A DNA stretch of 33,538 bases from Granulosicoccus sp. (GTDB lineage Bacteria; Pseudomonadota; Gammaproteobacteria; Granulosicoccales; Granulosicoccaceae). Where the stretch lies: NCBI GenBank assembly GCA_020627685.1, contig JAHDGK010000026.1:36666-70203 (forward strand). Reading direction: 5' to 3'. The position numbers and the translations under genes were made by a program. Below the pieces are notes generated by a model, which was not told where the DNA came from, ran no database searches, and saw only the letters and a list, made by a program, of their open reading frames with translations. Below, in pieces: positions 11,767-32,137 of the stretch. Position 1 is the first letter of the stretch; each line of letters opens with the position of its first letter.

Positions 11767-14229
11767 TCAGGCCACTTTCTTCTGGACGAGATCCGATTGA
11801 TTAAGTTCGGAAACCAGCTCTGGCAGGTCTGCTGCCGTAACAGGTTTCGCGAAATAAAACCCCTGAACGAGATCGCAGTTGAGCTGTTTGATGAAATTCA
11901 ATTGCTCTTGTGTTTCGACGCCTTCGGCAATTGTCACGAGATCGAAACGGCTCTTGAGCAAATCGATGGTTTCGCTGAGCTCTTTTAGCTTTGCGCCGCC
12001 GGTTAACTTTCTGACAAAGGAGCGATCAATTTTCAGCACGTCCAAGGGCAATTCCGCTGAATACTGCAAGGAGGAATATCCAGCACCGAAGTCGTCTACC
12101 GCAATACGCACACCGTTAGATCTTAATAACTGAAAATTCCCGTTAACAGATGCCAAATCGTTGGTCAGCACGCTCTCCGGAACCTCCAGCTGCAATCGAA
12201 CAGGATCAATATCGTAGGCTTCTAGAATTTTAAGCACTGCACCTGAAAAACCCTTACTCATCAACTGCGGCCCAGCGACATTGATACCTAAATGCCAAGG
12301 GACTGGGTCGAAATGTTGCCAATCTACCATTTGCTGACAACCCTTCTCCAATACCCAAGTACCCACCATCGAAATTAATCCCAACTCTTCGGCGAGTGGT
12401 ATAAATTTAGTCGGGGGTAGAATCCCGCGAGTGGGATGCTGCCAGCGTATAAGAGCTTCAACACCACTGACTAAACCACTGGACAATGAGATTTGCGGCT
12501 GATACCACAGATCAAATTCTTGATCGGAAACCGCTTTATGCAGATCCTTGATTGAACTTTGTTCTTCGCGCAATGTGATGGCATGAGCATGGTCAAAACT
12601 CACTATACGGTTTCGACCTTTGCTCTTGGCTTGATACATCGCCATATCCGCGTGGCGTATCAAGTCATCCATGGTCACGCCATCTCTGGGATAGAAGCTG
12701 ATACCAATACTGACTCCAAGGGATACCTCAACACCATCAACCAGAAACGCATCGGAGAAACTCTCCGCAAAGTTCGCAGCGCGCTCCACAGCCTCTCTTA
12801 AACGAGGAATACTCGGAAGAACAACCGCAAATTCATCTCCGCCAAGTCGAGAAAGCATATCGCTCTCACTCTTACATTGTGTCAGTCTTTGCGCAACTTG
12901 TTCGAGTACGACATCGCCGGCAGCATGGCCATAGGTGTCGTTAATATCTTTGAAACCATCAAGGTCGAAAAAAAGCACCGCTTTGAGTGTTTCGGAATCG
13001 GTCGATTTATTCAACAAGTCAGATAAGAAATCTTCAAAACCTCGCCTGTTCGGCAAGCCTGTGAGGCTATCGTGAACCGCTTGATACTGCACTTCTCTCA
13101 ACAACTCATGTCTTTGAAGCGCTGTTGACAGTTGTCCGATTACAGTGTGCACTGTATTGACATCGTTTTCATCAAAATCGCGTTTATCCAAAGAGCGACA
13201 AACAACCAACATACCCCTCACCTTTGCATTTGCCATAACAGGCACGCATAGAGTGCTTCCTATTTTCTGCTCACGTCTAAATGCATGAATCTTTGCAGAC
13301 TCTCGTGGGTCTTCAATAGTTCTATTAATTTGGGCCGGCAGCTTGTTTTCAAAACACCAACGGCTTACCGTCTCATTAATCAGGTCAGAGCTGATAGATT
13401 CACTTAAGACAACTTCGTCGTTGTTTCGCACCCAGCTGGCATAGGCATGAAGGGTTTGGTTTTCCTGCTCCACGTTGTACAAACTAACACGGGATAAATC
13501 CAAAGCATCGAATAATTTTGGACAAACATGCAGGGCCAAATCATCCCAGTCTTGTATCTCATACATTGCTGCACTTATCTGACTAAGCGATTTGCTTCTG
13601 AAAAGTTCACGTGAGACAGATTCACGCTGCCGGGCATGATGTATTGACAACGATGCTATAACCGCAACTTGTTTAAGTAAATCTAAATCGTCCTGTAGTG
13701 GCTGCCCCATTTCGGCAGTAACAAAAACAACACCAAGAACTTCTCCCGCAAAAGTAAGCGGTAACGATACGGCTTGGATATTAGAATCAAGCTCTAAAAC
13801 ACAGTCAGGATGATTATTATAGTCTTCGACGTACTGAGCGACCCCGGTCGCCCAGACTTTCGCAGAAAGCCCAATACCGTAAAAGCGTTTTGCCCCAATC
13901 AGGCTTTCGCTTAACGGTCCACAGGCTGCCAGAACATCGAGGTGATCGCCCGTTTCATGAACCATATGCATATATGCACCGTTCGCACAACTGACATTCA
14001 CTAGCTCTCTGGCAATGTGTTGAAGCAGAGTGTCAACAGATTCATGTTGCAGCATGGCAGCCGTTGTCTCACCGAGCTCAGACAACCAACAATTATGGAT
14101 AAGCAGCGTTTGGTACCGAGCTACTAAAACTTCGTTTATATCCAGCTTACTACCATCCACGCCATCACCTGACACGCTCTCTTCAAGTGCACTTAGTTCA
14201 TTCCTGAGTGGTTCATACCAGTCGGACAT
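11767..14229 (-). CDS. Cytoplasmic c-di-GMP enzyme with GAF-GAF-GGDEF-EAL architecture
   Basis: An 820-residue protein with no membrane segment. Two GAF sensor domains (about 60-200 and 225-375) precede a GGDEF domain (about 380-545) and an EAL domain (about 555-805). The GGDEF motif is intact (463-467), so diguanylate cyclase activity is possible. The RxxD inhibitory site expected six residues before it is absent (S-E-S-D). EAL residues are complete: E591-A-L, N650, E682/E685, D712-D713, K733, E769 and Q789, so phosphodiesterase activity is expected. GAF domains usually bind small molecules or haem; the ligand here is unknown. A palindromic element overlaps the leader (14236-14291). The gene lies about 200 bp from the REC-PAS-GGDEF-EAL gene on the same strand. 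Confidence 0.95.
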   Translation of the reverse strand: MSDWYEPLRNELSALEESVSGDGVDGSKLDINEVLVARYQTLLIHNCWLSELGETTAAMLQHESVDTLLQHIARELVNVSCANGAYMHMVHETGDHLDVLAACGPLSESLIGAKRFYGIGLSAKVWATGVAQYVEDYNNHPDCVLELDSNIQAVSLPLTFAGEVLGVVFVTAEMGQPLQDDLDLLKQVAVIASLSIHHARQRESVSRELFRSKSLSQISAAMYEIQDWDDLALHVCPKLFDALDLSRVSLYNVEQENQTLHAYASWVRNNDEVVLSESISSDLINETVSRWCFENKLPAQINRTIEDPRESAKIHAFRREQKIGSTLCVPVMANAKVRGMLVVCRSLDKRDFDENDVNTVHTVIGQLSTALQRHELLREVQYQAVHDSLTGLPNRRGFEDFLSDLLNKSTDSETLKAVLFFDLDGFKDINDTYGHAAGDVVLEQVAQRLTQCKSESDMLSRLGGDEFAVVLPSIPRLREAVERAANFAESFSDAFLVDGVEVSLGVSIGISFYPRDGVTMDDLIRHADMAMYQAKSKGRNRIVSFDHAHAITLREEQSSIKDLHKAVSDQEFDLWYQPQISLSSGLVSGVEALIRWQHPTRGILPPTKFIPLAEELGLISMVGTWVLEKGCQQMVDWQHFDPVPWHLGINVAGPQLMSKGFSGAVLKILEAYDIDPVRLQLEVPESVLTNDLASVNGNFQLLRSNGVRIAVDDFGAGYSSLQYSAELPLDVLKIDRSFVRKLTGGAKLKELSETIDLLKSRFDLVTIAEGVETQEQLNFIKQLNCDLVQGFYFAKPVTAADLPELVSELNQSDLVQKKVA

Positions 14230-14235
14230 AACTGC

Positions 14236-14291
14236 TTAGCCTAATATTACCTTACAGTGCTGGTAGCGGCCGGTTAGGCTAACATGTTAGC
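14236..14291 (-). promoter_or_regulatory. Nested inverted repeats and a perfect 14-bp palindrome in the GAF-GGDEF-EAL leader
   Basis: TTAGCCTAA (14236-14244) is an exact inverted copy of TTAGGCTAA (14274-14282). The second arm overlaps a perfect 14-bp palindrome, GCTAACATGTTAGC (14278-14291). On the coding strand the repeat nearest the gene contains the only AGG available as a ribosome binding site, ending 6 nt before the ATG at 14229. It can therefore be read as an operator for a dimeric regulator or as a hairpin that hides the ribosome binding site. The 14245-14430 remainder holds no gene. Confidence 0.5.
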
Positions 14292-14430
14292 TTGCAAAGA
14301 CTTACCATCAACGCCAAGCCTATAGAATGTGACTCAAATCACGCACGCATCTGTAGTCTTACTAACAGCGTGCACCATTCACTGAGTCACTGCGCGTGGT
14401 GCTTGCCCACAACGGGTAGATAGGAGGACC

Positions 14431-16572
14431 CTAATCTCCAGTTCCCGAACGCTTTATCTCCGCTTGATTAAACTCTGCAAACATTTCAGCAATGGCAGCT
14501 CCCGGAATAGGACGGCTCAGATAATAACCTTGTGCCTCATCGCAGTTGCAATCATATAAAAATTCAAGCTGCTCCCTGGTTTCGACACCTTCTGCAATGA
14601 CCCTCAAATTCATGCTATTTGCCATCGACAGTACCGCCCTCACGATGGCTGAATCATGCACGTTGCTTAGCATGCCTTGAACAAATGACTGATCAATCTT
14701 AAGCCTATCAATTGGGAAATGCTTTAACTGACTCAAACTTGAAAATCCAGTTCCAAAATCATCAATGCTGAGCTCATACCCCAGCTGCTTCAGGGAGTGT
14801 AGAGTCTCCACAGCACTAAACGTATCGTCGACTAACACGCTTTCCGTTATCTCCAGCTCTAGCATGGCAGGATCTAGTCCAGAATCAGACACAGTGTTAT
14901 CTACCAGCGTTAAAAAATCCGGCCGGATGAACTCAAGAACAGAAATATTGACGGCTATTCTTTTTAGCGGCACACCCGCGTTAATCCACTCAACCGCTTG
15001 TTTGCACGCTGTGCTTAGCACCCACTCGCCAATTCCAACGATTAAGCCCGTATCTTCAGCAAGCGGGATAAAATCACCGGGTGAAACAAATCCCAACTCA
15101 TCGTTGTTCCAACGAACCAGAGCTTCAACACTCTCAAGCTTACCGGTTTCTAAATTAAGCTGAGGTTGGTAATGCAAAACAAGCTCATCTGATTCGATCG
15201 CAGAACGCAGTAGCTCTTCCATGCGATACCGGCGAATCGAATTAGCATCTAGTTCCAGACTGTAAGTCTGATAGCAACCTTTACCTCTTTTCTTTGCTCC
15301 ATACATCGCCACATCAGCGGTCTTCAGAAGTTCGTCTACCGAGTTACCGTGATCGGGAAAATGAGAAATTCCAATACTCGTTGAAGTATGACATTCGTTC
15401 TCATCAAGCTCGTAGACGTCTGAAAGTGACTCAGTGACATCTTCAGCAAATTTGATTACTTCAGAGCGCTCTTTAAGACCCGTGAGAAGCACAGTGAACT
15501 CATCGCCTCCCATTCTGGCGACGGTACAAGGCCCTTCTTCCAAGCCGTATGCCTTATTAACCTCATTGGCACACGCCTGTAATCGCTCGCCCACTTCCTG
15601 CAATAGAAGATCTCCATAGGCATGACCAAGACTATCGTTAACGCGTTTGAAGTTATCAAGATCAAGGAAAAGAACAGCTATGTCTTTCGGTTCTTTTCGT
15701 CCCATCGCGATGTCGCGAGCCAAACGCTCACAGAAAAGAACTCGATTGGGCAGGCGCGTAAGACTATCGTAGTAGGCCAGCATATGGATTTTTTTCTCGG
15801 CCTGATATTGTTCAGTAACATCATGAACAACACCCCATTTTCTGACTATCACACCGTCAGAATCAAAATCGTTTCGAATACGTACGGTGACGTGACGCTC
15901 TTCCCCGTCTTCGGTAAACAATCGCTGCTTTAGCATTGATTCAGGCTTGGTGTGATCAGACACAAGCCAGTTGAAAAGTTTGCTGCGATCTTCTTCGGCA
16001 ACGTACTTCATAAACAACGATAGGGTTGACGCTTGACTCTGCGGCTCCAAACCGAGGAGTCTGAATAAATTATCTGACCAGATAAGCGCGCCTGTGCTCA
16101 TGTTGTATTCCCAACTACCTAAGCTGGCGATTCTCTGTGCAACGTCCAGGCTGCTGTGACTGCGATCGAGGTCTTCCAGAATTTCACTGGTCCGAAGCAT
16201 ATTATTAAGCCGATGGGGTAACAGTGGCCAGTTCACAGGCTTCGTTGCGAAATCTGTCGCGCCCGATTCAAAAGCCATATCGACGGCCGCCGCATCGTCA
16301 CGCTTGGTAAGCATCAGTATGGGCAACCTGACGCCTTGCTCTAGCATGCGGATCTGCTCACACGCCTTGTAGCCGTCTGTAATAGGCATGTCAACATCGA
16401 GTAGAACAACATCGGGTGCGTTGCTTTCAATATATTTTAATGCGTTTTTCGCATCAAGCACGCTCTCTGCTGCAAATCCGGCGCGATTTAAAAATTCCAC
16501 AGCGCGACGACACATCGCTTCATTGTGATCAACAACCAATACTCTAGATACTTTTGAATCCAGTGTGCTCAT
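14431..16572 (-). CDS. Response-regulator c-di-GMP enzyme, REC-PAS-GGDEF-EAL
   Basis: A 713-residue soluble protein. The N-terminal receiver domain (about 8-125) has the phospho-acceptor Asp59 in V-V-L-L-D-V-D-M-P and Lys111 in T-K-P. It lacks the usual acidic pair at the first loop, having D15-H16 there. A PAS domain (about 140-255) follows, then GGDEF (355-359 intact) and EAL (483-485, with D604-D605-F-G, K625 and E661). Both catalytic halves look competent, and the inhibitory RxxD site is absent. It probably adjusts c-di-GMP on phosphorylation by a kinase not encoded beside it. Its own leader is AT-rich with no clear ribosome binding site. It lies upstream of the GAF-GGDEF-EAL gene on the same strand, but about 200 bp separates them. 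Confidence 0.95.
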   Translation of the reverse strand: MSTLDSKVSRVLVVDHNEAMCRRAVEFLNRAGFAAESVLDAKNALKYIESNAPDVVLLDVDMPITDGYKACEQIRMLEQGVRLPILMLTKRDDAAAVDMAFESGATDFATKPVNWPLLPHRLNNMLRTSEILEDLDRSHSSLDVAQRIASLGSWEYNMSTGALIWSDNLFRLLGLEPQSQASTLSLFMKYVAEEDRSKLFNWLVSDHTKPESMLKQRLFTEDGEERHVTVRIRNDFDSDGVIVRKWGVVHDVTEQYQAEKKIHMLAYYDSLTRLPNRVLFCERLARDIAMGRKEPKDIAVLFLDLDNFKRVNDSLGHAYGDLLLQEVGERLQACANEVNKAYGLEEGPCTVARMGGDEFTVLLTGLKERSEVIKFAEDVTESLSDVYELDENECHTSTSIGISHFPDHGNSVDELLKTADVAMYGAKKRGKGCYQTYSLELDANSIRRYRMEELLRSAIESDELVLHYQPQLNLETGKLESVEALVRWNNDELGFVSPGDFIPLAEDTGLIVGIGEWVLSTACKQAVEWINAGVPLKRIAVNISVLEFIRPDFLTLVDNTVSDSGLDPAMLELEITESVLVDDTFSAVETLHSLKQLGYELSIDDFGTGFSSLSQLKHFPIDRLKIDQSFVQGMLSNVHDSAIVRAVLSMANSMNLRVIAEGVETREQLEFLYDCNCDEAQGYYLSRPIPGAAIAEMFAEFNQAEIKRSGTGD

Positions 16573-21815: not shown

Positions 21816-23099
21816 TCAAGCAGCGTTACTTATAAACTCCATAACCATGGCCGCCGTCCACGTGAATGTGCTACCGCCACATGGCTCACCCGTATTGGGA
21901 TCGTAGTACTCGGCAAATCCGGACTGATTTATGAGCTCCAAACTTGACGACTCAATACGCTGTACGAGTTCTATATGGCCTGCTCTTCGTAAACCATCGG
22001 CAATGAGATAGTTAACAATAAGCCAACTAGGGCCCCGCCAATAACGTTTGGAATCGTAGCGTTCGTCCGTTGGATCATGACTGGGCACCAAATATTTCGC
22101 TGACTTACTAAGCTCATCTATACGTTGCGCCACAGCAGCAGATCGATTCTCCGGAAGCGCTGCGATGACAGGAATCAGGCCACCCACTGAAGCACTGTCG
22201 ACCAACTCGCGACCTTCACGGTCGTAACACAGATATTGTTGAAGAGAATTGCTCCACAGCGTTTCCAGTGCGTTCAACCCAAAGGCTGCACGCTCTTTAT
22301 TGCGCTGAGCAATGTCTTCACGGCCCAGACGACTAGCTAGCTCAGCAATGTCAGCGCATGAGCGAATAAGAATGGCGTTAAACCCCGGGTCAACAACCTT
22401 AAAAGGTGATGCATCATGAAGCACGCTGTTGTCCCAACCCAGACTTCTAAAATGCTGGACTAACCAGATATAACGATCATACTGAGCTGCTGTAGGGCGA
22501 TGGTCGGCACTAGCATGTTGCAAATCACGTCGTTGATAAGGCTCCAAGCCTTCTGTAGGCACACGGTCTAAGGCGATGTCCCAATCAACTGAGTTGTCCC
22601 GGCCGGACTCCCATGGATGAATCAATGCAACCAGACCCGTACCGTGTGGATCTCTGTTGGCATAAAACCATTCGTGCCATCGGTCAATTTTAACTAATAG
22701 TTCTGCAGCTTCTTTATTCGCCAATTCAGTGTCTTTCGCCCGATCAAACAATCGCAAGGCGGCGAAGCCTGCAACCGGCGGCTGAGTAATACCTGTCGTT
22801 GGAATTTTTCTACCGGTACTCCATACCTCTGGCCCCGGGAAATAACCATCATCCATCTCGTGGAAAACAATATGGGGAACCATCCCATCATCCCATTGAT
22901 GTTCGAACAGAGTCTTCATTTCGGCCCAGGCGCGCGCCTCATCAATGTGCTGCTGTCCAATTGAAACAAGACACGAATCCCAATTCCACTGGAATGGATA
23001 TAACCCACTGGTTGGAACCGTGTAATGACCTCGATCATTTACGCGAAGCACTTCTACTGCGCGCTCATACATGGACTGCTGGACGTTATTAGAATTCAT
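21816..23099 (-). CDS. GH63-like glycosidase, probable mannosylglycerate/glucosylglycerate hydrolase type
   Basis: A 427-residue (alpha/alpha)6-barrel glycosidase without a signal peptide. The conserved segments are G-L-Y-P-F-Q-W-N-W-D-S (32-42), H-P-W-E-S-G-R-D-N-S (161-170) and E-Y-Y-D-P-N-T-G-E-P near the C-terminus. By comparison with characterised GH63-type mannosylglycerate/glucosylglycerate hydrolases, Asp168 and Glu397 are the likely acid and base. Its position as the last gene of a sugar ABC operon and its cytoplasmic location indicate that it hydrolyses an imported small glycoside. A glycosylglycerate osmolyte is the favoured substrate; trehalose-like or other alpha-glucosides remain possible. 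The ATG at 23099 has only a weak ribosome binding site. Confidence 0.82.
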   Translation of the reverse strand: MNSNNVQQSMYERAVEVLRVNDRGHYTVPTSGLYPFQWNWDSCLVSIGQQHIDEARAWAEMKTLFEHQWDDGMVPHIVFHEMDDGYFPGPEVWSTGRKIPTTGITQPPVAGFAALRLFDRAKDTELANKEAAELLVKIDRWHEWFYANRDPHGTGLVALIHPWESGRDNSVDWDIALDRVPTEGLEPYQRRDLQHASADHRPTAAQYDRYIWLVQHFRSLGWDNSVLHDASPFKVVDPGFNAILIRSCADIAELASRLGREDIAQRNKERAAFGLNALETLWSNSLQQYLCYDREGRELVDSASVGGLIPVIAALPENRSAAVAQRIDELSKSAKYLVPSHDPTDERYDSKRYWRGPSWLIVNYLIADGLRRAGHIELVQRIESSSLELINQSGFAEYYDPNTGEPCGGSTFTWTAAMVMEFISNAA

Positions 23100-23155
23100 G
23101 ATTCTCTATGTATGGAAAGACAGACTAAAAACCGACAAATGCAATTGAATAGCGA

Positions 23156-24229
23156 TTAGTTAATTGCCAGTTCAGATTCGGGGTCAAACCAACGCACTCG
23201 ATCTGGTTGCGGCGACCATTGTAGCGTATCTCCCGGACTAACCTTCGCATCACTATCCAGTACGATTCTAAACAGCTGATCGTCAACCTTGCAGCTTGCG
23301 AGCAAATGAGAGCCGAGAGGTTCCAAAATTCTGACACCTGCCGACAAGCTGTCATCATTTGCGGCACTACCATTGCCTGACGGGCCATGAACCACAATAT
23401 CCTCAGGCCGAATTGCAAATTTCAGCGTTTTACTCGAGCTATTGGGTCCTTTAATCTTTACGCCGTTGACATTCCACCAACCATCGCCGGCGTTCTCGGC
23501 GCTCAGAAAATTCATCGGCGGATTACCTATAAACGAGGCCACGAAGTGCGCAGCAGGATTTCGATAGACTTCCACCGCGCTGGATGCCTGCACAATTTTC
23601 CCACCATTCATGATGGCAATTCTGTCAGCCATACTCATCGCTTCGACCTGATCGTGAGTAACGTAAATGGTGGTTGTCTTACTTTCAGCCAGCACCGATT
23701 TAAGTTCCGCTCTCATCTCCATGCGAAGCAGCGCATCAAGATTCGATAAGGGCTCATCCATCAGCAACACCTCGGGCTCTGTTGCCAATGCTCGGGCTAC
23801 CGCTACTCGCTGACGCTGACCACCACTTAATTGTCCGGAGTATCTTTTCAGCAAGCCTTCGATATGCATAAGAGTGGCCGTCTTTTCAACGCGCCTGTCT
23901 ATTTCCGCTTGATCGACTTTCGACATACGAAGGCCAAACGCTATATTTTCAAATACCGTCAGGTGTGGAAAAACCGCATAGTTTTGAAAAACCATAGCGA
24001 TGCCTCTGTCTTTTGGTGCAAGCTGATCAACTCTTTTGTCACCAATCCACACTTCACCGGTGGTCGCCGTTTCAAGACCTGCAACAATTCGCAGAAGCGT
24101 CGTTTTGCCGCAACCGGAAGCTCCTAGTAAAACCAGGAACTCCTCGTCAGCAACTGTCATGTCTATAGAATGCAGTGCGTGTGTATTTCCGTACTGCTTT
24201 GCAACTTGTTTAATTTTAATTTCAGCCAT
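23156..24229 (-). CDS. Sugar ABC importer ATPase, MalK/UgpC type
   Basis: A 357-residue ATPase. Walker A is G-A-S-G-C-G-K-T-T (36-44), the Q-loop F-Q-N-Y-A-V-F-P-H (81-89), the signature L-S-G-G-Q (134-138) and Walker B V-L-L-M-D-E-P (154-160). The Y-V-T-H-D-Q-V-E-A-M segment carries the switch His. The C-terminal OB-like regulatory domain starts at about residue 240, the MalK/UgpC arrangement. GAGG 8 nt before the ATG supports the start. It lies 49 bp after the 24279 permease gene and 56 bp before the glycosidase, so the whole set is likely one operon. Confidence 0.95.
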   Translation of the reverse strand: MAEIKIKQVAKQYGNTHALHSIDMTVADEEFLVLLGASGCGKTTLLRIVAGLETATTGEVWIGDKRVDQLAPKDRGIAMVFQNYAVFPHLTVFENIAFGLRMSKVDQAEIDRRVEKTATLMHIEGLLKRYSGQLSGGQRQRVAVARALATEPEVLLMDEPLSNLDALLRMEMRAELKSVLAESKTTTIYVTHDQVEAMSMADRIAIMNGGKIVQASSAVEVYRNPAAHFVASFIGNPPMNFLSAENAGDGWWNVNGVKIKGPNSSSKTLKFAIRPEDIVVHGPSGNGSAANDDSLSAGVRILEPLGSHLLASCKVDDQLFRIVLDSDAKVSPGDTLQWSPQPDRVRWFDPESELAIN

Positions 24230-24278
24230 TGTGGTGTCCTCAGTATTAGTTGAATAGCAAGCGATCGCAGAAACTTAT

Positions 24279-25124
24279 CTAGCGATTTGCAATGCCCCAC
24301 ATGGAAAAGAGGTACTTGCGCACCATGAAAATGAACAGTAGAGCCGGAAGAACGAGTACAGCCCCACCGGCAAATTTAAGATGAAGTGGTGAATCACTAA
24401 GCCCCTGCAACAAGAATGCAGGTAGGGTCCTATTCTCAATGGTTAGCACCGCTGCAGCGAACACTTCATTCCAGGAAATAACAAACGCGAAGATGGCAGA
24501 CGCGGCTATTCCGGGTAGAACCAACGGAAAAATAACCTTCATAAAGGCCTGAAATCGGTTACAGCCCAGAGTCCAGGCAGCCTCTTCTAGTTCGATCGGA
24601 ATGCCTGAAAACAGTGAATAGGTGATGAGTACGGCGAAAGGTAAAGCCAACGTTGTATGTACGAAAGCTAATCCAAGTACTGAATCATCTAATCCCACTC
24701 TTATATACATAACTGCAAGTGGCAATGCTAAAAGCGGTAATGGAAACGCTCGTGTCATCAATACTAATACGCGAAAAGTATCCTTACCTCGGAAGTCGAA
24801 TCTGGACAATGCGTATCCAGCAGGCGCTCCAGCAGATATTGACAAGATCATGGTGACTGTCGCGACCTTGATAGAATTCCACAAAGCCTGACCGACCCCG
24901 GCATAGTTCATAAAGAACTTCAAACTTTCAGTGTCTACAACAGGGAATGCTTTTTTAGGGTAAGAAGCTACTGCTTCGGGCGATGAAAACGTATTCACCA
25001 GCAACAAGTAAATAGGTACCAATACCCAAAGACATAAGAGAACTACCGCACCCGTAAAAAAGTATTTATGCCAAGAACCTGCAGATTGTACGGGGCCAGA
25101 TCCGAAACGATTTGCTTCACTCAT
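24279..25124 (-). CDS. Sugar ABC importer permease, MalG type
   Basis: A 281-residue inner-membrane permease of the carbohydrate-uptake class with about six helices. The coupling loop reads E-E-A-A-W-T-L-G-C-N-R-F then V-I-F-P-L-V-L-P-G. The C-terminal S-W-N-E-V-F-A-A helix and closing K-Y-L-F-S-M-W-G are typical of MalG-like subunits. The ATG overlaps the stop of the preceding permease (ATGA), indicating translational coupling. Confidence 0.94.
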   Translation of the reverse strand: MSEANRFGSGPVQSAGSWHKYFFTGAVVLLCLWVLVPIYLLLVNTFSSPEAVASYPKKAFPVVDTESLKFFMNYAGVGQALWNSIKVATVTMILSISAGAPAGYALSRFDFRGKDTFRVLVLMTRAFPLPLLALPLAVMYIRVGLDDSVLGLAFVHTTLALPFAVLITYSLFSGIPIELEEAAWTLGCNRFQAFMKVIFPLVLPGIAASAIFAFVISWNEVFAAAVLTIENRTLPAFLLQGLSDSPLHLKFAGGAVLVLPALLFIFMVRKYLFSMWGIANR

Positions 25125-25969
25125 ACTCTTGCCCCCTTGGGTGTTCTAAGCCCCCACATAATCAACAACGTACAAGCAATAGAAATGGCGAGAATAACCA
25201 TCGCGTAAGCGGCAGCGACATTCGCATCCTGTAAATCAAATTGCCACGTGTATATTTCGCCCATCAAGACCGGAAGGTTCGTACCTCCAAGTGCGACCAC
25301 AACGGCAAACACTTCGAACGCCATAATGATTCGCAAGATCATCGCTGTTTGCAAACTGGGCTTCAGCATAGGCAGAGTAATCTTGGTGAATCGTTTCCAA
25401 CGACCCGCACCGAAGACTTCTGCAGCCTCATAGTATTCTTTTGGTATAAGCCCCATACCGGCCACTAAAATGACTAGCACAATAGCAGTGGCGCGCCAGA
25501 CTTCTGCGACCAGAATAGCGAGGAAGATAGTGCCCTTGCTTTGGTACCCCAATAGACTCATAGGCTGATCGATGAATCCTAAGCCTTGCATAGCACTATT
25601 CAAGAAACCAGTTTGATCGAATATTGCCAGCCAAATGATTCCGGCTGCCAAGTCGGAAATTCCTAAAGGAATCGTCCAAACATAGAGGATTAGGTCTCGG
25701 CCACGCTTCATACCGTTGACCAATGTGGCCATGTATAAAGCTAAGCAAATTTGAAATGGAACCACAGCTAACGCTAGTAGTAGCGTATTAGTGAACGCTG
25801 TGTTGAATTTCCAATGCGAGCTCATCTCTACAAAAAAATCTGAAGTGAACTGCCCGGAATCGTTTACAAAGGCCTGCCAAGCCACTAACCCGAACGGATA
25901 TAAGAAAAACAAACACAGAAAAACAGCTGCAGGCAACAACAAAAGGTAGGGAAGACTTTTCGGATACAT
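25121..25969 (-). CDS. Sugar ABC importer permease, MalF type
   Basis: Inner-membrane permease of 282 residues with about six helices and the coupling loop E-A-A-E-V-F-G-A-G-R-W followed by I-T-L-P-M-L-K-P. The ATG at 25969 is chosen because AGGGG lies 8 nt upstream; the frame extends to an ATG at 25987 that has no ribosome binding site. It partners the 24279 permease. It follows the binding-protein gene after a strong stem-loop. Confidence 0.92.
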   Translation of the reverse strand: MYPKSLPYLLLLPAAVFLCLFFLYPFGLVAWQAFVNDSGQFTSDFFVEMSSHWKFNTAFTNTLLLALAVVPFQICLALYMATLVNGMKRGRDLILYVWTIPLGISDLAAGIIWLAIFDQTGFLNSAMQGLGFIDQPMSLLGYQSKGTIFLAILVAEVWRATAIVLVILVAGMGLIPKEYYEAAEVFGAGRWKRFTKITLPMLKPSLQTAMILRIIMAFEVFAVVVALGGTNLPVLMGEIYTWQFDLQDANVAAAYAMVILAISIACTLLIMWGLRTPKGARV

Positions 25970-26070
25970 ATAACAACCCCTAAACATCAGTGATTAGCGC
26001 GCCAAGGGCTGCGCTAAAATCGGCGAATTACAAAAGTACTTAGGAGGGGGCCGCTTGCGCGGTTAAAACT

Positions 26071-26103
26071 CTCACGCTGAGCTTAATGAAAGCTCAGCGT
26101 GAG
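26071..26103 (-). terminator. Perfect 14-bp stem-loop between binding-protein and permease genes
   Basis: CTCACGCTGAGCTT (26071-26084) pairs exactly with its inverse at 26090-26103 around a 5-nt loop, 16 nt after the binding-protein stop. On the transcribed strand it is followed by AGTTTTAACC, a short T-run. It should work as a partial terminator or 3'-end stabiliser, letting some transcription continue into the permease genes while keeping binding-protein mRNA abundant. Confidence 0.85.
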
Positions 26104-26119
26104 ATAACGCTAGTCGAAC

Positions 26120-27388
26120 TTAGTCAACAGGGCATGCACCGTCTGAGGCTGCATCAGGAGCCCAGCATGGAGCACCAGCTTCTTCCATGATCTTTCTTAA
26201 CGAATCAGCTTGATCATCAAGTACTGTGCGAACGTCTTGACCCGCAAGAACAATTCTCTCGAAAGCATCAACATAAACTGCGTTGAACTTTCCACCCAAG
26301 TCACCTAAACCGACAGGCAGTAAGCCTGGGTTCGCATCAGCAGAGCCGGACATTGCAGCAATTGCAGCACCAGACTTCTGTACAGCAGCAGGCATATCAG
26401 CTGGAAGCTCTACGTCAACAACCGGGAAGAAGTTGGTTGCTTTGAGAGTTTCAATTTGAGTTGAAGGTTGTAGCAAGTAAGACAGCAGCTCTTTCGATGC
26501 GGCCATATCAGGTGATGTTCCTGGAACAGCTATACCGACGACAACTGGCATAAAACCACGACCTGTTGGACCTGCAGGAGCTGGGAACGCAATGAAGTCA
26601 TCTGGACGCGAATTGAACGCATCAGCCACACGGGCTGTGTGGTCGAATACAACCCAGACTTCTTCAGTAAGCAGTTGCTCTTGCATGAATGAGAAGTTAG
26701 TGGAACCTGGGTTCGTGTAGCTCCAAAGCTCTTTAAACTTGTTCCATGCAGTTTCAGCTTCAGCTGAACGGAACTTAGTCACCATGCTATTGGTGTATGA
26801 GGGATACATATAGCCCTGGAAGAAACGATGCTTCAAGCCTTTAGGACCTGCAGGAAAACCAAATTTAGGAGAACCTGTTTCCTCTGCCATATTCTTTGAC
26901 CATTCAATGAGCTGATCATAGCTAAGAGCATTGATGTCAGCTCCTTCAGGCAGGAAAGGCAGAGCTTTCTTGTTGGCAGCCATGATGTAAGTAGCCTGCA
27001 TCCAAGGGATATATTTTTGCTCGTCAGTGCCTAGCTTACCCAGCTCGAGGAACGTGGAGTTCACACCATCTACATTGACATCTGAAAGATCAGACAGATT
27101 GTCTGACAAAGAGATTAGATTTCCATGTAGTGAACCTAGCAGACCAATTTTACCTTCGCCCGCTTGTGCTTCGGCTTCAACACGTGTTAGCCATGGGCCG
27201 TTATCACTGGGTTGAAAGTCGACTTCGCCCGAGAAACCAGCAAGCACTTTTTCTCGTACCGCTTGCGCCTCTTCCACAGGCTTAGCCTGTGTGGACCAGA
27301 AAAGTACTTCCGCTGAAGCGGCACCAGATGCTAATAAAGACATCCCCGTTGTTAAAGCAACAACTAAGGACTTACGCTTAAATGACAT
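26120..27388 (-). CDS. Sugar ABC importer substrate-binding protein
   Basis: Periplasmic binding protein of the carbohydrate-uptake family. From the ATG at 27388 it has 422 residues and a Sec signal peptide (M-S-F-K-R-K-S-L, hydrophobic core, cleavage after A-A-S-A at residue 26). GGAGAG just upstream of the ATG supports this start; upstream in-frame sequence to 27484 lacks a signal-like beginning. The pattern (F-W-S-T-Q near the N-terminus, W-M-Q-A-T-Y-I-M-A-A-N-K-K-A hinge region, G-R-G-F-M-P-V-V-V-G-I-A-V-P-G) is that of family 1 sugar-binding proteins. No lipobox Cys is present. Two Cys near the C-terminus could form a disulfide. Confidence 0.9.
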   Translation of the reverse strand: MSFKRKSLVVALTTGMSLLASGAASAEVLFWSTQAKPVEEAQAVREKVLAGFSGEVDFQPSDNGPWLTRVEAEAQAGEGKIGLLGSLHGNLISLSDNLSDLSDVNVDGVNSTFLELGKLGTDEQKYIPWMQATYIMAANKKALPFLPEGADINALSYDQLIEWSKNMAEETGSPKFGFPAGPKGLKHRFFQGYMYPSYTNSMVTKFRSAEAETAWNKFKELWSYTNPGSTNFSFMQEQLLTEEVWVVFDHTARVADAFNSRPDDFIAFPAPAGPTGRGFMPVVVGIAVPGTSPDMAASKELLSYLLQPSTQIETLKATNFFPVVDVELPADMPAAVQKSGAAIAAMSGSADANPGLLPVGLGDLGGKFNAVYVDAFERIVLAGQDVRTVLDDQADSLRKIMEEAGAPCWAPDAASDGACPVD

Positions 27389-27462
27389 AACTCTCTCCGA
27401 TTGAGTGGTGGCCTTTAAGGATACGGCCGGGTGTAATAAACACAGCTTGGAATAATCGCTTT

Positions 27463-27476
27463 CCACACGTGTTTGG
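27463..27476. promoter_or_regulatory. Possible LacI-family operator in the binding-protein promoter region
   Basis: CCACACGTGTTTGG contains the 8-bp palindrome ACACGTGT centred on CpG, about 75 bp before the binding-protein start. LacI-family operators commonly have a central CpG. The outer bases do not pair well, so support is modest. Confidence 0.35.
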
Positions 27477-27529
27477 TAATGCAACTAAAATTATTCGGTG
27501 TAGAGGCATTAAGAAATCCATTGACCCTA

Positions 27530-28612
27530 CTACCCCTTGGTTTTACTAACAGTTTTGAGGCTGTTAGGTACAGGCTTTGGAGCAGGTCCGTGACTGCCCC
27601 GTCTGATGAATATGGGTGAAACAAGCTTTTGCTGAATTTGATCGGGCGTGTCCAACGTGTCCAGAATTAAACCAGCTGTTTGTTGTGCAGTACTTCTTAT
27701 AGATTGATCAAACGTCGTCAAACCCGGGTTTGAATAGTGCGCGGCTGGGATGTTGTCGTATCCAATGACAGTCAGAGATTCTGGCACGCTGACTCCCAAT
27801 GACGCTGCGTGCTCGAGTACGCTCAAAGCAAGCTCGTCGGTAAGTGCAACTATGGCACTCGGTCGATTCTCAGATTCAAGCATCGATCGTATAGCCTCGC
27901 CCCACGATGCGGTATCGAATCGTGGTACGTGACGTGTGGTAAGTGTGACATCTGGATCACCACAATCCTTTATTGCCCCTATGAGCCCATCCTCTCGATA
28001 TCGTCGAAAGGTCATTGACTCAGTGATTGACAACAGCCCGATCTTCTTATGCCCTAACTCTTGGTACAACCACTGAAAGAGATCCGAAAAGGCTTGCTTA
28101 CCGTCGGTATCAATCCAACTGTAATCACTGTGATCGAGTGTTCTGCCGTGTGCAACAAATGGAAATCCACGCTTAACAAGGAAATCTACACGCTCATCTT
28201 CTTCGGCAATACGAGTGAGCACCATCGCGTCAGCCCGGCCAGCGTCGACAATGTGCTTGAGCACAGTGGCTTCTGACTGCGAACTTGAAACAGTTGTCAT
28301 GAAAAGATCTCTGCCCTGCTCGGCCAAGCCTGCGCTCAAACCGGTGATGTACTCACCAAGGAATGGATCGAGAATCGCAGTTTCGCGAACAGGCAACAGG
28401 AATCCGACAAAACCGCTGCGACCAGTTACCAGCATTTTGCCCGCTGAATTGGGTACGTAATCGGCCGCTGCGGCAGCAGCTCGCACTCGATTCTTCGTGG
28501 CTTCGGCAACATCCGAATAACCCGCCAAGGCTCGTGAGACCGTTGTAATAGACAAGCCCAGCTCGGCTGCTATCGCCTTCAACGTGCCTTTTTTGGGTGC
28601 GGTTATTTCCAT
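27530..28612 (-). CDS. LacI-family transcriptional regulator of the sugar operon
   Basis: A 360-residue regulator. The N-terminal helix-turn-helix and hinge (L-K-A-I-A-A-E-L-G-L-S-I-T-T-V-S-R-A-L-A, residues 11-30) are followed by a periplasmic-binding-protein-like sugar-sensing domain (about 65-340), including D-E-L-A-L and V-I-G-Y-D-N-I-P. It lies directly upstream of the importer genes on the same strand, so it is the natural local regulator, probably a repressor released by the imported sugar or its product. A good palindromic operator lies upstream of its own gene, suggesting autoregulation. Confidence 0.94.
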   Translation of the reverse strand: MEITAPKKGTLKAIAAELGLSITTVSRALAGYSDVAEATKNRVRAAAAAADYVPNSAGKMLVTGRSGFVGFLLPVRETAILDPFLGEYITGLSAGLAEQGRDLFMTTVSSSQSEATVLKHIVDAGRADAMVLTRIAEEDERVDFLVKRGFPFVAHGRTLDHSDYSWIDTDGKQAFSDLFQWLYQELGHKKIGLLSITESMTFRRYREDGLIGAIKDCGDPDVTLTTRHVPRFDTASWGEAIRSMLESENRPSAIVALTDELALSVLEHAASLGVSVPESLTVIGYDNIPAAHYSNPGLTTFDQSIRSTAQQTAGLILDTLDTPDQIQQKLVSPIFIRRGSHGPAPKPVPNSLKTVSKTKG

Positions 28613-28907: not shown

Positions 28908-30116
28908 TTAGTAACCCAGTTCGGCGGCCACGTCTCGAGCCACGGACTTCCATTCGTCCAACTTATCACTCATGGCGATACGCTCTAGGAAATCATGATC
29001 CAATTTGGATTCCACCACATCATTGGGCTCCTTCTCAACCGCCCAATGAGCCAGATAGTTGCTGATGTGGACCACCCCGACGATATCCAACTCATGTGAA
29101 AAAATCGCAGAAGGCGTGTCGTGGAATGTCACAGCCTCTACCACTGACGTGGGTACGCCCCATAAATTCAGGAAATATCCGCCAATTTCGGCGTGGGTGC
29201 ATCCAAGGATATCCCGTTCAGCAGCTGATGACGCCCATGTATATGGAGCACCGTCTTGGACACTAACCAGAGACGCAACGACTTCCGGCCGTTCGATGGC
29301 AATAATTATCTTACCTACATCGTGCAACAGACCCGCTGTCATTAAAGCTGATGAGCATTCAGAAGCCGGTGCTATCTCTTTGGCTATCGATGAACATAGC
29401 TGACTGTGTTTCTGCATAGCCGAGACATCGAAGTAATCCATCTTGGGAATGTCTTTTGATTTTTCGAAAAGCTGATCCGCAAGCAATAGAGATCGAATGA
29501 CTTCAAGCCCCAAATGGGTGACAGCTTGACGAGCAGAAACAACAGACACCTGCCTTCTAAAAAATGAAGAGTTGGCTAGCTGCAGAATTTTCGCTGTAAG
29601 CGCTAAGTCCTCCTCAACGAGATTCGCTATATCGTGAACTGAGCTATCACTTGAATTGATACTCTCCAATAATTTTCCCTGCACATTTTCACCGGCTGGC
29701 AATCTACCTGCAGCACCCGCTAACTCTTGCACGATAGGGTTATCAAACGCTTCAATTAGTCCTGTATCACGCGAAATAACTTCATCAAGTTCGTCAACTG
29801 CGCAAGGTTTGGTTAGATATCGCTGCGCTAACTCAGTGAGCTTAATGGTGTTGTCTTCATCGGCATAGCCCGTTAAGGCAATTCGAACAGCATTCGGATG
29901 ATTGTCCTTCGCGTACTGAAGCACTTCGATGCCACTTAGGCCAGGCATTCGCACGTCAGAAACAACAACGTCGTAGTTTGAGTCTGTCATCTTTGAAATA
30001 GCGGCATCGCCACCACAGGCGAATGTCATATCCCAACGTCTTCTAAATTTACGAAGGGAATCTTCAAGGCCATCAAGAACAGCAGGCTCATCATCGACAA
30101 ATAGGATCTTTTTCAT
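28908..30116 (-). CDS. Response regulator with HDOD output domain
   Basis: A 402-residue protein. The N-terminal receiver domain (about 1-120) has Asp8/Asp9, phospho-acceptor Asp54 in V-V-S-D-V-R-M-P and Lys105 in L-T-K-P. The C-terminal HDOD domain (about 140-340) has the G-L-L-H-D-V-G-K-I core at 264-272. HDOD domains are HD-related, usually without proven enzymatic activity, and act in signalling through protein contacts. The gene overlaps the histidine kinase by ATGA, so it is almost certainly the cognate partner. No DNA-binding domain is present. The pathway output must therefore be protein-protein or some undescribed activity. Confidence 0.94.
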   Translation of the reverse strand: MKKILFVDDEPAVLDGLEDSLRKFRRRWDMTFACGGDAAISKMTDSNYDVVVSDVRMPGLSGIEVLQYAKDNHPNAVRIALTGYADEDNTIKLTELAQRYLTKPCAVDELDEVISRDTGLIEAFDNPIVQELAGAAGRLPAGENVQGKLLESINSSDSSVHDIANLVEEDLALTAKILQLANSSFFRRQVSVVSARQAVTHLGLEVIRSLLLADQLFEKSKDIPKMDYFDVSAMQKHSQLCSSIAKEIAPASECSSALMTAGLLHDVGKIIIAIERPEVVASLVSVQDGAPYTWASSAAERDILGCTHAEIGGYFLNLWGVPTSVVEAVTFHDTPSAIFSHELDIVGVVHISNYLAHWAVEKEPNDVVESKLDHDFLERIAMSDKLDEWKSVARDVAAELGY

Positions 30117-31573
30117 GCTGCTAAGTCTCTGCCACCTTCTAACTGGGGCGATAGGCTTCCATTGTTGTTCGAAGCTATAGGTAGTTCAATAAAGAAGGTC
30201 GTACCATGCTCAGGAGATGTCTCAAAATACAGGCGACCGCCATGTTTCTCTACGATTATATTGTGAGATATCGATAAGCCTTGACCCGTGCCTCGCCCCA
30301 CTTCTTTGGTTGTGAAAAAGGGATCAAAAATACGATGTTGAATGTCCTTTGGGATACCAGTGCCATTGTCAGCCACGCTGACGATAACACGCCCATTTTC
30401 CATTCTTGTAGACACTTTTATCGTGCCTTCCTCGACGTTGTTTTCGGCAATGGCGTGCGCCGCATTGACGACCAAGTTCAAAAATACCTGATTTAAATCA
30501 CCCAAATAGCAATCTATCAGTGGAATTTCTTGTAAATCGGTTTCTATTCTCGCTACGTACTTATATTCGTTGCTAGCAACCGTAAGGACTGTGCCCAAAG
30601 CACGGTTGATATCCGCGTTGTCTTTTTCTTTTCTATCCGGGTGAGTAAACTCATTCATAGCACTCACAATTTCGGTTACACGCGCTATACCTTCTAACGC
30701 TCTATTGAGCGCCTTAGGCCCTCTTTCACATAAGTAGTCAAGATCTGCATCTTCAAGTTTTTCTTGGAACTCCATGACTTTCGGATCCGCCATCAAGCTA
30801 TCTTGAGAAAAGTAGCTATTTAATGTGTTGTTTAGGCCTCCAAGATCTGACAAGGAGTCATTCAAAAAACTAAGACTACTGCCAATGTATTGCATCGGGG
30901 TGTTAATTTCGTGAGCAATCCCAGCCGCTAACTGGCCAACAGATTCTAGTTTTTGCGCATGTCTCAGTTCAACTTCCACACGCTCTCGTTCCTTCATCTC
31001 ATGTTCTAATACCGATTTGGATTCCAACAGTTCTTCCGCTTGACGCTCCAAAGCTTTGGTACGCCTTAGAACTCTCTCTTCCAGCTCCTTGTTCAAGTGT
31101 GTAAGCTCATCTGAAAGACGCATACTGTCATCCAAAGAAACTTTCTGAGCCTGCACCAGTATGAGAAAGTCAGACATTGGGCTATGCACAGGAAAATCAT
31201 TCAGTGAAAATCCCAGACTATCCAACACGTCTACATCTGTTACCCAAGGCGATACCAGGAAAACAAAATGGGATTGGTTTTCGCTGACAACCATCTGTCC
31301 GCGCAATACGAGATCGGGGTGTTTTTTCGAGGCAAGTAAGAAAAGTTTGTTCTTAAATTTGGCTAGGTCTGCAACACTTTTTACACCTGACGGGTGCTGA
31401 AACGTGAAGTGATCAAACAAGCTTTTATTATCTTCATGCACTTGCCCAATCTTTCTCTCTAGGGGCTCTCCAAAACTCAGAATACTACCTAAATCATCAA
31501 TCACGATATGAAACGGAAAAGCTTGCGTCAATAGCTTTTCACTAAGTTCTGATGAATGGAATAAGCCCGTCAT
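30113..31573 (-). CDS. Cytoplasmic histidine kinase with N-terminal HNOBA domain
   Basis: A 486-residue kinase with no membrane helix. Residues about 15-150 match the HNOBA (H-NOX-associated) domain of soluble guanylyl cyclase: F-P-F-H-I-V-I-D near 19-26, L-V-L-R-G-Q-M near 88-94, F-L-V-S-P-W-V-T-D near 105-113, and F-S-L-N-D-F-P-V-H-S near 122-131. A charged coiled coil (about 150-205) leads to the H-box, with phospho-acceptor His221 in G-I-A-H-E-I-N-T-P. The ATPase domain has an N-box (N-L-V-V-N-A-A-H-A-I), D-N-G-T-G-I-P and G-R-G-T-G-Q-G-L. It starts 6 bp after the H-NOX stop and overlaps the response regulator. It should receive the H-NOX signal and phosphorylate the REC-HDOD protein. Confidence 0.93.
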   Translation of the reverse strand: MTGLFHSSELSEKLLTQAFPFHIVIDDLGSILSFGEPLERKIGQVHEDNKSLFDHFTFQHPSGVKSVADLAKFKNKLFLLASKKHPDLVLRGQMVVSENQSHFVFLVSPWVTDVDVLDSLGFSLNDFPVHSPMSDFLILVQAQKVSLDDSMRLSDELTHLNKELEERVLRRTKALERQAEELLESKSVLEHEMKERERVEVELRHAQKLESVGQLAAGIAHEINTPMQYIGSSLSFLNDSLSDLGGLNNTLNSYFSQDSLMADPKVMEFQEKLEDADLDYLCERGPKALNRALEGIARVTEIVSAMNEFTHPDRKEKDNADINRALGTVLTVASNEYKYVARIETDLQEIPLIDCYLGDLNQVFLNLVVNAAHAIAENNVEEGTIKVSTRMENGRVIVSVADNGTGIPKDIQHRIFDPFFTTKEVGRGTGQGLSISHNIIVEKHGGRLYFETSPEHGTTFFIELPIASNNNGSLSPQLEGGRDLAA

Positions 31574-31579
31574 GAAGGA

Positions 31580-32137
31580 CTATGCCGCCTTCTGCTGCTC
31601 GAAAGTGACTAAGAATTTTTCTATGGGAGATTCACCAGCAACCGTCTCCATATACTCAACTTCTACGGGAGTGCCAAATCTCTTGCCAAGCCCGCGTACT
31701 AATCCAACCAACATGGGTGCCAGACCAGCCCGCTCGCTCTGATATTCAACAACAAGCCGTCCACCTGACAGTTCTTCACAGGTAATTTGGGGAGGTCGAA
31801 GCTCTGGAAAACTTAAGCGAATTTGTGCGTGAAGGCTATCCATATTTTGTAAGAACTCAAATACAGAATCGCCGTAAAGAGACATTGTCTTACCGTAGCC
31901 CTCGTCAACAGTAAACTGGATCCAGTGCTCACCAAATGCTTCGAGTATTTGTTCAGCAGGCGTGTCAAGAACCTCACTTGCAGCACCGACCAAATCATAA
32001 GTGACCTGATCCGGATAAGGCTTCATCATGATGAAGGATTGGTCAACACCTGCCTTCTTCGCGATTTCCTGCCACTTAGCATCACCAAAATTGGATTTGA
32101 CTAATTGCTCAACCGCCTTATTTACAAGTCCATACAT
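31580..32137 (-). CDS. H-NOX haem nitric-oxide sensor
   Basis: A stand-alone 185-residue H-NOX domain. It begins M-Y-G-L-V-N. The proximal haem ligand is His103 (S-L-H-A-Q-I) and the haem-propionate motif Y-x-S-x-R is Y132-Q-S-E-R136. The position of the distal Tyr that stabilises O2 in the Thermoanaerobacter protein aligns to Pro141, so NO selectivity is expected. An ATG at 32152 is in frame, but the ATG at 32137 gives the family's usual start and has GGAGAG upstream. Its position directly before an HNOBA kinase indicates that the ferrous-nitrosyl state controls that kinase. Confidence 0.95.
   Translation of the reverse strand: MYGLVNKAVEQLVKSNFGDAKWQEIAKKAGVDQSFIMMKPYPDQVTYDLVGAASEVLDTPAEQILEAFGEHWIQFTVDEGYGKTMSLYGDSVFEFLQNMDSLHAQIRLSFPELRPPQITCEELSGGRLVVEYQSERAGLAPMLVGLVRGLGKRFGTPVEVEYMETVAGESPIEKFLVTFEQQKAA

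Follow-up and report, generated by a model that had tools for sequence, protein, structure and literature searches.

The 33,538-nucleotide stretch analyzed here, from contig JAHDGK010000026.1 of the marine-type bacterium Granulosicoccus sp. (positions 36,666 to 70,203; hereafter, the window) carries three consecutive minus-strand genes that encode an H-NOX protein, an HNOBA-containing histidine kinase, and a REC-HDOD response regulator. It is fairly likely that they form a nitric oxide (NO)-responsive two-component system, in which a sensor head of the soluble guanylyl cyclase (sGC) type, made up of a free H-NOX and an HNOBA domain, has been grafted onto a kinase/REC-HDOD chassis of Gammaproteobacteria. 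The evidence consists of the domains, their intact residues, the gene order, the class of the kinase, and the presence or absence of H-NOX among relatives, all of which were observed.

The three genes and their likeness to soluble guanylyl cyclase

The H-NOX gene (31580-32137, minus strand) encodes a heme NO/O2-binding protein of 185 amino acids, which was assigned by its residues, its Pfam HNOB match (residues 2 to 161, 1e-51), and its likeness to Alr2278 (5e-55) and sGC beta-1. The listed open reading frame (ORF) begins at a GTG (32152), but the start was taken as the ATG at 32137, which fits an H-NOX. Six bases (31574-31579) separate it from the gene of a 486-amino-acid histidine kinase (30113-31573, minus strand), with an HNOBA/PAS-like domain at residues ~10 to 125, a coiled coil or S-helix at ~126 to 205, the phospho-accepting H221, and an ATPase domain at ~359 to 466, based on Pfam, the solved structure 2p04, and sGC beta-1. 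The kinase gene overlaps by 4 bases (30113-30116) with that of a 402-amino-acid response regulator (28908-30116, minus strand), composed of REC (residues 4 to 114, phosphoacceptor D54) and HDOD (residues 139 to 335) domains according to Pfam and an alignment of six orthologues. The three genes are real and intact, with domain matches far above chance, and their positions and spacing agree with the original prediction.

The HNOBA domain that had been proposed for kinase residues 15 to 150 was recovered with Pfam (5.3e-23, 82.1 bits against a cutoff of 23.4) in two stretches, the best of which covers residues 83 to 169. The kinase also matches HATPase_c (2.3e-25) and, with 23.4 bits under a cutoff of 26.9, HisKA (6.3e-5); the regulator matches Response_reg (2.1e-18) and HDOD (5e-43, 147.3 bits against a cutoff of 22.9). 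Key functional residues are in place in all three proteins, including the proximal H103, P115-P116, and the YxSxR motif (Y132 to R136, YQSER) of H-NOX, H221 in AHEINTP (220 to 226) and the N, G1, F, and G2 boxes of the kinase, and D8/D9, D54, T82, and K103 of REC. H-NOX proteins of the O2-binding type carry a distal-pocket Tyr, and since there is no Tyr between residues 133 and 161, the Granulosicoccus H-NOX appears to lack this residue. No DNA-binding or GGDEF/EAL domain was detected in the regulator. Pfam found no class III cyclase domain in any of the three proteins, and kinase domains stand in its place.

H-NOX residues 1 to 181 align to residues 1 to 185 of sGC beta-1 (9.2e-32, with sGC beta-1 matches reaching 3.3e-34), and kinase residues 8 to 183 align to beta-1 residues 206 to 394 (2.4e-7). 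Because the two proteins align to successive segments of beta-1, the boundary between their genes falls in the sGC linker. This in-order alignment, together with the Pfam domains, bears out the earlier claim that the sGC domain order is reproduced with a kinase in place of the cyclase. Among solved structures, 2p04 is the best match to the kinase N terminus (2.4e-10) and is deposited as a signal transduction histidine kinase; 2p04 and 2p08 are presumably the H-NOXA domain of Nostoc. A solved H-NOXA of Nostoc punctiforme is mentioned in a passage of PMC2828450. Bacterial HNOBA domains were therefore already known, as had been noted, and since the HNOBA part of the window's kinase matches a histidine kinase structure, a bacterial HNOBA-kinase is not new. 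Judged from these alignments, the split sGC-like head is known in kind.

Kinase ancestry and the REC-HDOD output

A kinase-core tree was built from 23 sequences, including 5 HNOBA-kinases, 10 of 13 kinases beside REC-HDOD genes, and 8 kinases beside H-NOX genes. Kinases of loci L169, L175, L177, and L090 were outside the tree, as were the HNOBA hybrid kinases of L094, L096, and L098 (58, 59, and 19 bits, respectively, to the window's kinase core). The HNOBA-kinases nest inside the REC-HDOD-side kinases of other Gammaproteobacteria and are split with 100/100 support from the H-NOX-side kinases, seven of which are from the same family and one from Pseudoalteromonas, with no experimentally studied HnoK among them. 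The window's kinase thus falls outside the HnoK/HahK class of kinases from H-NOX operons, and its core grouping and the REC-HDOD gene directly downstream place it among kinase/REC-HDOD two-component pairs.

To characterize such pairs, 15 REC-HDOD loci (L166 to L180) were chosen by the likeness of their regulators, not of their kinases (the 14 best outside the family and one lower-ranked); the REC-HDOD genes of L169, L173, and L176 were located by tblastn. A similar kinase core lies upstream on the same strand in 12 of the 15 loci (in L178 with a 274-amino-acid ORF between) and nearby on the other strand in L175, and none was found in the stretches fetched for L176 and L180. None of these loci gave an HNOBA match, 13 of the 15 have adjoining HNOBA-free kinases, and the five kinases scanned contain REC, PAS, GAF, MHYT, or Tll0287-like domains in place of HNOBA. 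The chassis is therefore common, and the sGC-like head is probably the new part that was grafted onto it. Because the kinase core nests among REC-HDOD-side kinases, the HDOD output most likely belongs to this chassis and came with it. The original prediction had called the HDOD output unusual, which holds in comparison with H-NOX pathways but not in comparison with REC-HDOD loci generally. Its description of the regulator as the sole encoded output is borne out at the level of the gene cluster only.

The grouping of the kinase core apart from H-NOX-side kinases led to the rejection of an output swap on an H-NOX/HnoK system, with HDOD replacing EAL or HD-GYP. A separate locus of Pseudoalteromonas xiamenensis (L183:2474-6491) contains adjoining genes for a NosR-family HD-GYP regulator (520 bits), a REC-HDOD protein, an H-NOX, and an HNOBA-free kinase; here, a REC-HDOD gene occurs independently next to those of an H-NOX and a kinase.

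The GYP signature is absent from all six regulator orthologues, which belong to HDOD. The HD dyad is HD in five of them, including that of the window, and HS in the genome G390, which indicates that the orthologues do not all require HDOD catalysis. In each of the 15 pairs that the six orthologues form, conservation is higher in REC than in HDOD. The HDOD part resembles the solved 3m1t, 3hc1, and MmoQ. Passages in PMC6543031 and PMC4114195 describe HDOD as HD-related and without phosphodiesterase activity and report effects on motility for SadB and for the HDOD response regulator GsmR; SadB binds cyclic diguanylate (c-di-GMP) according to a passage in the former. The open-licence papers searched included none combining "H-NOX" with "HDOD", nor one combining "HDOD domain", "response regulator", and "nitric oxide". 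The signals and targets of REC-HDOD regulators are little known, and the trio adds a case with a predicted input gas.

An ordinary H-NOX/HnoK pathway into c-di-GMP, with the HDOD protein as a degenerate, HnoD-like HD-GYP acting as an allosteric regulator of other encoded enzymes, is an improbable alternative. In NCBIfam, the REC part scores best with the model of the NosR-family HD-GYP regulators (NF053512, 97.1 bits; next model, 47), the window contains two large consecutive GGDEF-EAL proteins (11767-16572, minus strand), one with GAF domains and one with REC, and L104 of the same family has H-NOX and kinase genes next to those of REC proteins in which EAL and HD-GYP were identified by motif only. 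However, the NosR match spans only REC residues 4 to 116 and is far below the cutoff of 400 bits, so the regulator is not a member of that family, and the position of the kinase core apart from the H-NOX-side kinases (100/100) also argues against such a pathway.

Relatives with and without H-NOX

The family sample comprised 48 genomes, including the window's own (G000). H-NOX was found in 25, HNOBA in 9, and an HNOBA-kinase in 6 of them. H-NOX adjoins the HNOBA-kinase in G000, G390, and G399 (L074 and L075) but not in G397, G392, and G400 (L163, L164, and L219). The kinase of G400 is split over two contigs with overlapping ends, and the regulator adjoins its terminal portion (L165). No H-NOX match was found anywhere in the draft genomes G397 and G400 (90% and 84% complete, respectively), and the single H-NOX of G392 lies on another contig, adjoining an HNOBA-GGDEF-EAL gene (L105). 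The survey suggested earlier thus found the three-gene order in three Granulosicoccus-like genomes, although the third gene in G399 runs off the contig, and the pair without adjacent H-NOX in three others. The statement that the genes "must work together" is too strong, since half of the six orthologous pairs have no adjacent H-NOX and two of these have none in the draft genome. The window's genome is close to Granulosicoccus, since both H-NOX relatives from named genomes, 83% and 82% identical, bear this label.

In both the regulator tree (99/99) and the kinase tree (100/99), the three pairs with H-NOX beside them group as a single clade. Within it, G399 pairs with G390 in the trees of the kinase (94/94) and the regulator (96/95). 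An rpoB tree joins G390 with G392 (96/95) and G000 with G399 (87/95); of the 26 genomes searched for rpoB, 17 yielded it, and G397 and G400 did not. Simple vertical descent of the trio was rejected on account of this conflict, behind which horizontal exchange or hidden duplication is likely.

In G397, a 60-codon stretch that resembles the H-NOX C terminus lies just upstream of the kinase, with a stop codon and one further base between them. The tblastn match (41 residues, 32% identity) is nonsignificant alone (E = 0.21). The score of 50 was reached by 0 of 500 shuffles, by 4 of 1,500 real stretches of the same length drawn at random, and by 0 of 132 taken from other parts of L163; when the match was anchored at the H-NOX C terminus and the stretch end, 0 of 3,000 random 200-base stretches reached it (highest score, 39). 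The random stretches, drawn from 24 loci, overlap one another and are not independent, and the anchoring rule was chosen with the match already known. Nothing was seen in a DNA-level alignment. A decayed H-NOX C terminus upstream of the G397 kinase is therefore probable but not proven. No such relic was found upstream of the kinase in G392 (score of 25, reached by 477 of 500 shuffles), and none was seen in G400 (score of 30, without a control).

Outside the family, samples of the class and phylum (369 and 398 genomes) were searched. Seventeen genomes have the PAS part of HNOBA, with H-NOX within 220 bases in 15 of them, which indicates that HNOBA normally serves an H-NOX. The remaining two are G473, in which HNOBA starts 98 bases from the contig end with the neighbor beyond it, and G753, which is 100% complete and has no H-NOX. 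H-NOX is also absent from six more genomes, in which the HNOBA match is confined to the coiled-coil end of the model; four others with this kind of match (G656, G757, G032, and G273) were outside the H-NOX check. No HDOD match was found near the outside-family HNOBA genes (~3 to 7 kb on each side where the contig allows for 9 genomes, 1.5 kb for the others), and no second genus in these samples has H-NOX, an HNOBA-kinase, and REC-HDOD together. Other HNOBA proteins carry GGDEF-EAL (L076, L077, and L105), GGDEF (L101), or the cores of hybrid kinases of other classes (L094 and L096), which indicates that HNOBA has been joined to different outputs more than once; L102 encodes a further HNOBA-GGDEF-EAL protein, with an HNOBA match of 23.2 bits, just below the 23.4 cutoff.

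These distributions bear on whether the HNOBA-kinase itself is the main sensor, through a PAS ligand, its redox state, or another partner, with H-NOX as an optional tuning add-on. We regard this as unlikely. Three family genomes keep the pair without adjacent H-NOX, the H-NOX of G397 has seemingly decayed while the pair stayed open, and G753 has an HNOBA-PAS-kinase with no H-NOX match. However, HNOBA is the least conserved kinase part in all ten pairwise comparisons, with or without H-NOX, unlike a strongly constrained ligand site; it nearly always adjoins H-NOX elsewhere; and an unlinked H-NOX could be missed in the G397 and G400 drafts, as G392 has one elsewhere. Rapid HNOBA evolution as a sign of lost function without H-NOX was rejected, since all ten pairs behave alike and the identities are too low to tell the cases apart. 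That the genes are merely chance neighbors, with H-NOX regulating something else and the kinase pair independent, is highly improbable: the pair does also occur without H-NOX, but only 6 bases separate H-NOX from the kinase, the order is kept in three genomes, among them G390 without the window's flanking genes, HNOBA is known as the domain that partners H-NOX, and the two align to sGC in order.

The alpha subunit of sGC is heme-less and offers a comparison for orphan HNOBA-kinases. Tentatively, HNOBA may be a detachable adaptor that outlives its heme sensor, so that loss of H-NOX leaves orphan sGC-type kinases sensing something other than NO. On this view, Granulosicoccus-like lineages would have lost the H-NOX gene, with the C-terminal relic of G397 as a trace, and kept open the genes of the HNOBA-kinase and the REC-HDOD regulator. 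Related HNOBA-kinases with and without linked H-NOX could show what HNOBA does alone, and their occurrence within one genus is the part of these findings worth following.

The trio is flanked upstream by a DUF533 protein gene and downstream by genes for a LacI-type regulator and an ABC transporter. The upstream DUF533 gene of G399 is 87% identical to that of the window, and no DUF533 or LacI match was found in the stretches fetched from G390, G397, G392, and G400. The region 21816-28612 encodes an MGH1-like glycoside hydrolase (mannosylglycerate hydrolase family), ABC transporter components, a solute-binding protein, and the LacI-type regulator, and is likely a compatible-solute or sugar uptake operon. 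A nitrile hydratase beta subunit and a second short protein resembling the beta N terminus are encoded at 632-1694.

H-NOX genes lie directly before HNOBA-GGDEF-EAL genes in L076, L077, L083, and L105 of the same family and in L095 and L102 elsewhere (L083 and L095 assigned by phmmer and motif only). At L103:4176-6353, in the window's genome, the genes of a SpoIIE-type (PP2C) phosphatase and of an HATPase_c_2 protein resembling anti-sigma factors come after a second H-NOX (C18:14879-15349), which suggests an NO-controlled partner-switching module. SpoIIE was found in all 12 scanned proteins beside family H-NOX genes without a kinase or HNOBA match, and HATPase_c_2 was found in L103 and L084; the other loci of this type are L078, L080, L081, L082, L084, L085, L086, L088, L089, L093, and L109.

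Proposed mechanism and comparison with known systems

The favored reading is that heme-bearing H-NOX would bind NO, as its residues suggest, and would dock, as it does in sGC, on the HNOBA-coiled coil of the dimeric kinase, changing autophosphorylation at H221. NO inhibits the kinase in HnoX/HnoK systems, and inhibition is for this reason slightly favored over activation. Gene overlap and conserved residues suggest that the phosphate would then pass to D54 of the REC-HDOD partner. The HDOD protein is probably nonenzymatic; its output would be exerted through binding or scaffolding and most likely concerns motility or attachment.

Several points weigh against this reading. With half of the orthologous pairs lacking an adjacent H-NOX, the kinase can be kept without one. 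The intact HD dyad in five of six regulators means that the window's copy may be an enzyme. The structure models are low in confidence and add little: the kinase model (mean pLDDT [predicted local distance difference test score] of 69) has strands in residues 22 to 109 and a single long helix at 133 to 255, with blue-light (LOV) receptor kinases as its best Foldseek matches (4gcz, 5.5e-17), and the regulator model (mean pLDDT of 61) is closest to the HDOD protein 3hc1 (4.5e-8).

It has long been asked how the NO signal travels from H-NOX to the catalytic domains of sGC. With a naturally split version that is read out through a kinase, the H-NOX:HNOBA step would become testable by adding or omitting one soluble protein. 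The first two genes of the trio keep the H-NOX-HNOBA-coiled coil order of animal sGC beta-1 but encode two polypeptides, with a histidine kinase replacing the cyclase and no alpha subunit identified. The closest solved relatives of the two sensor parts are the H-NOXA-histidine kinase of 2p04/2p08 and the Alr2278-type H-NOX, both from Nostoc. A free H-NOX gene adjoining an HNOBA gene is also found in the family's HNOBA-GGDEF-EAL pairs, in which the output is instead formed by c-di-GMP turnover domains. The HnoX/HnoK pathway of Shewanella, Vibrio, and Pseudoalteromonas likewise has an H-NOX gene adjoining a histidine kinase gene, and its partner regulators carry EAL, HTH, or HD-GYP; the eight H-NOX-side kinases compared differ in having no HNOBA match and in forming a separate clade. 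The gammaproteobacterial kinase/REC-HDOD pairs share a similar kinase core beside REC-HDOD in 13 of the 15 loci, whereas the five scanned kinases have other sensor domains and no HNOBA. On the output side, the solved HDOD part of the response regulator MmoQ resembles that of the window's regulator.

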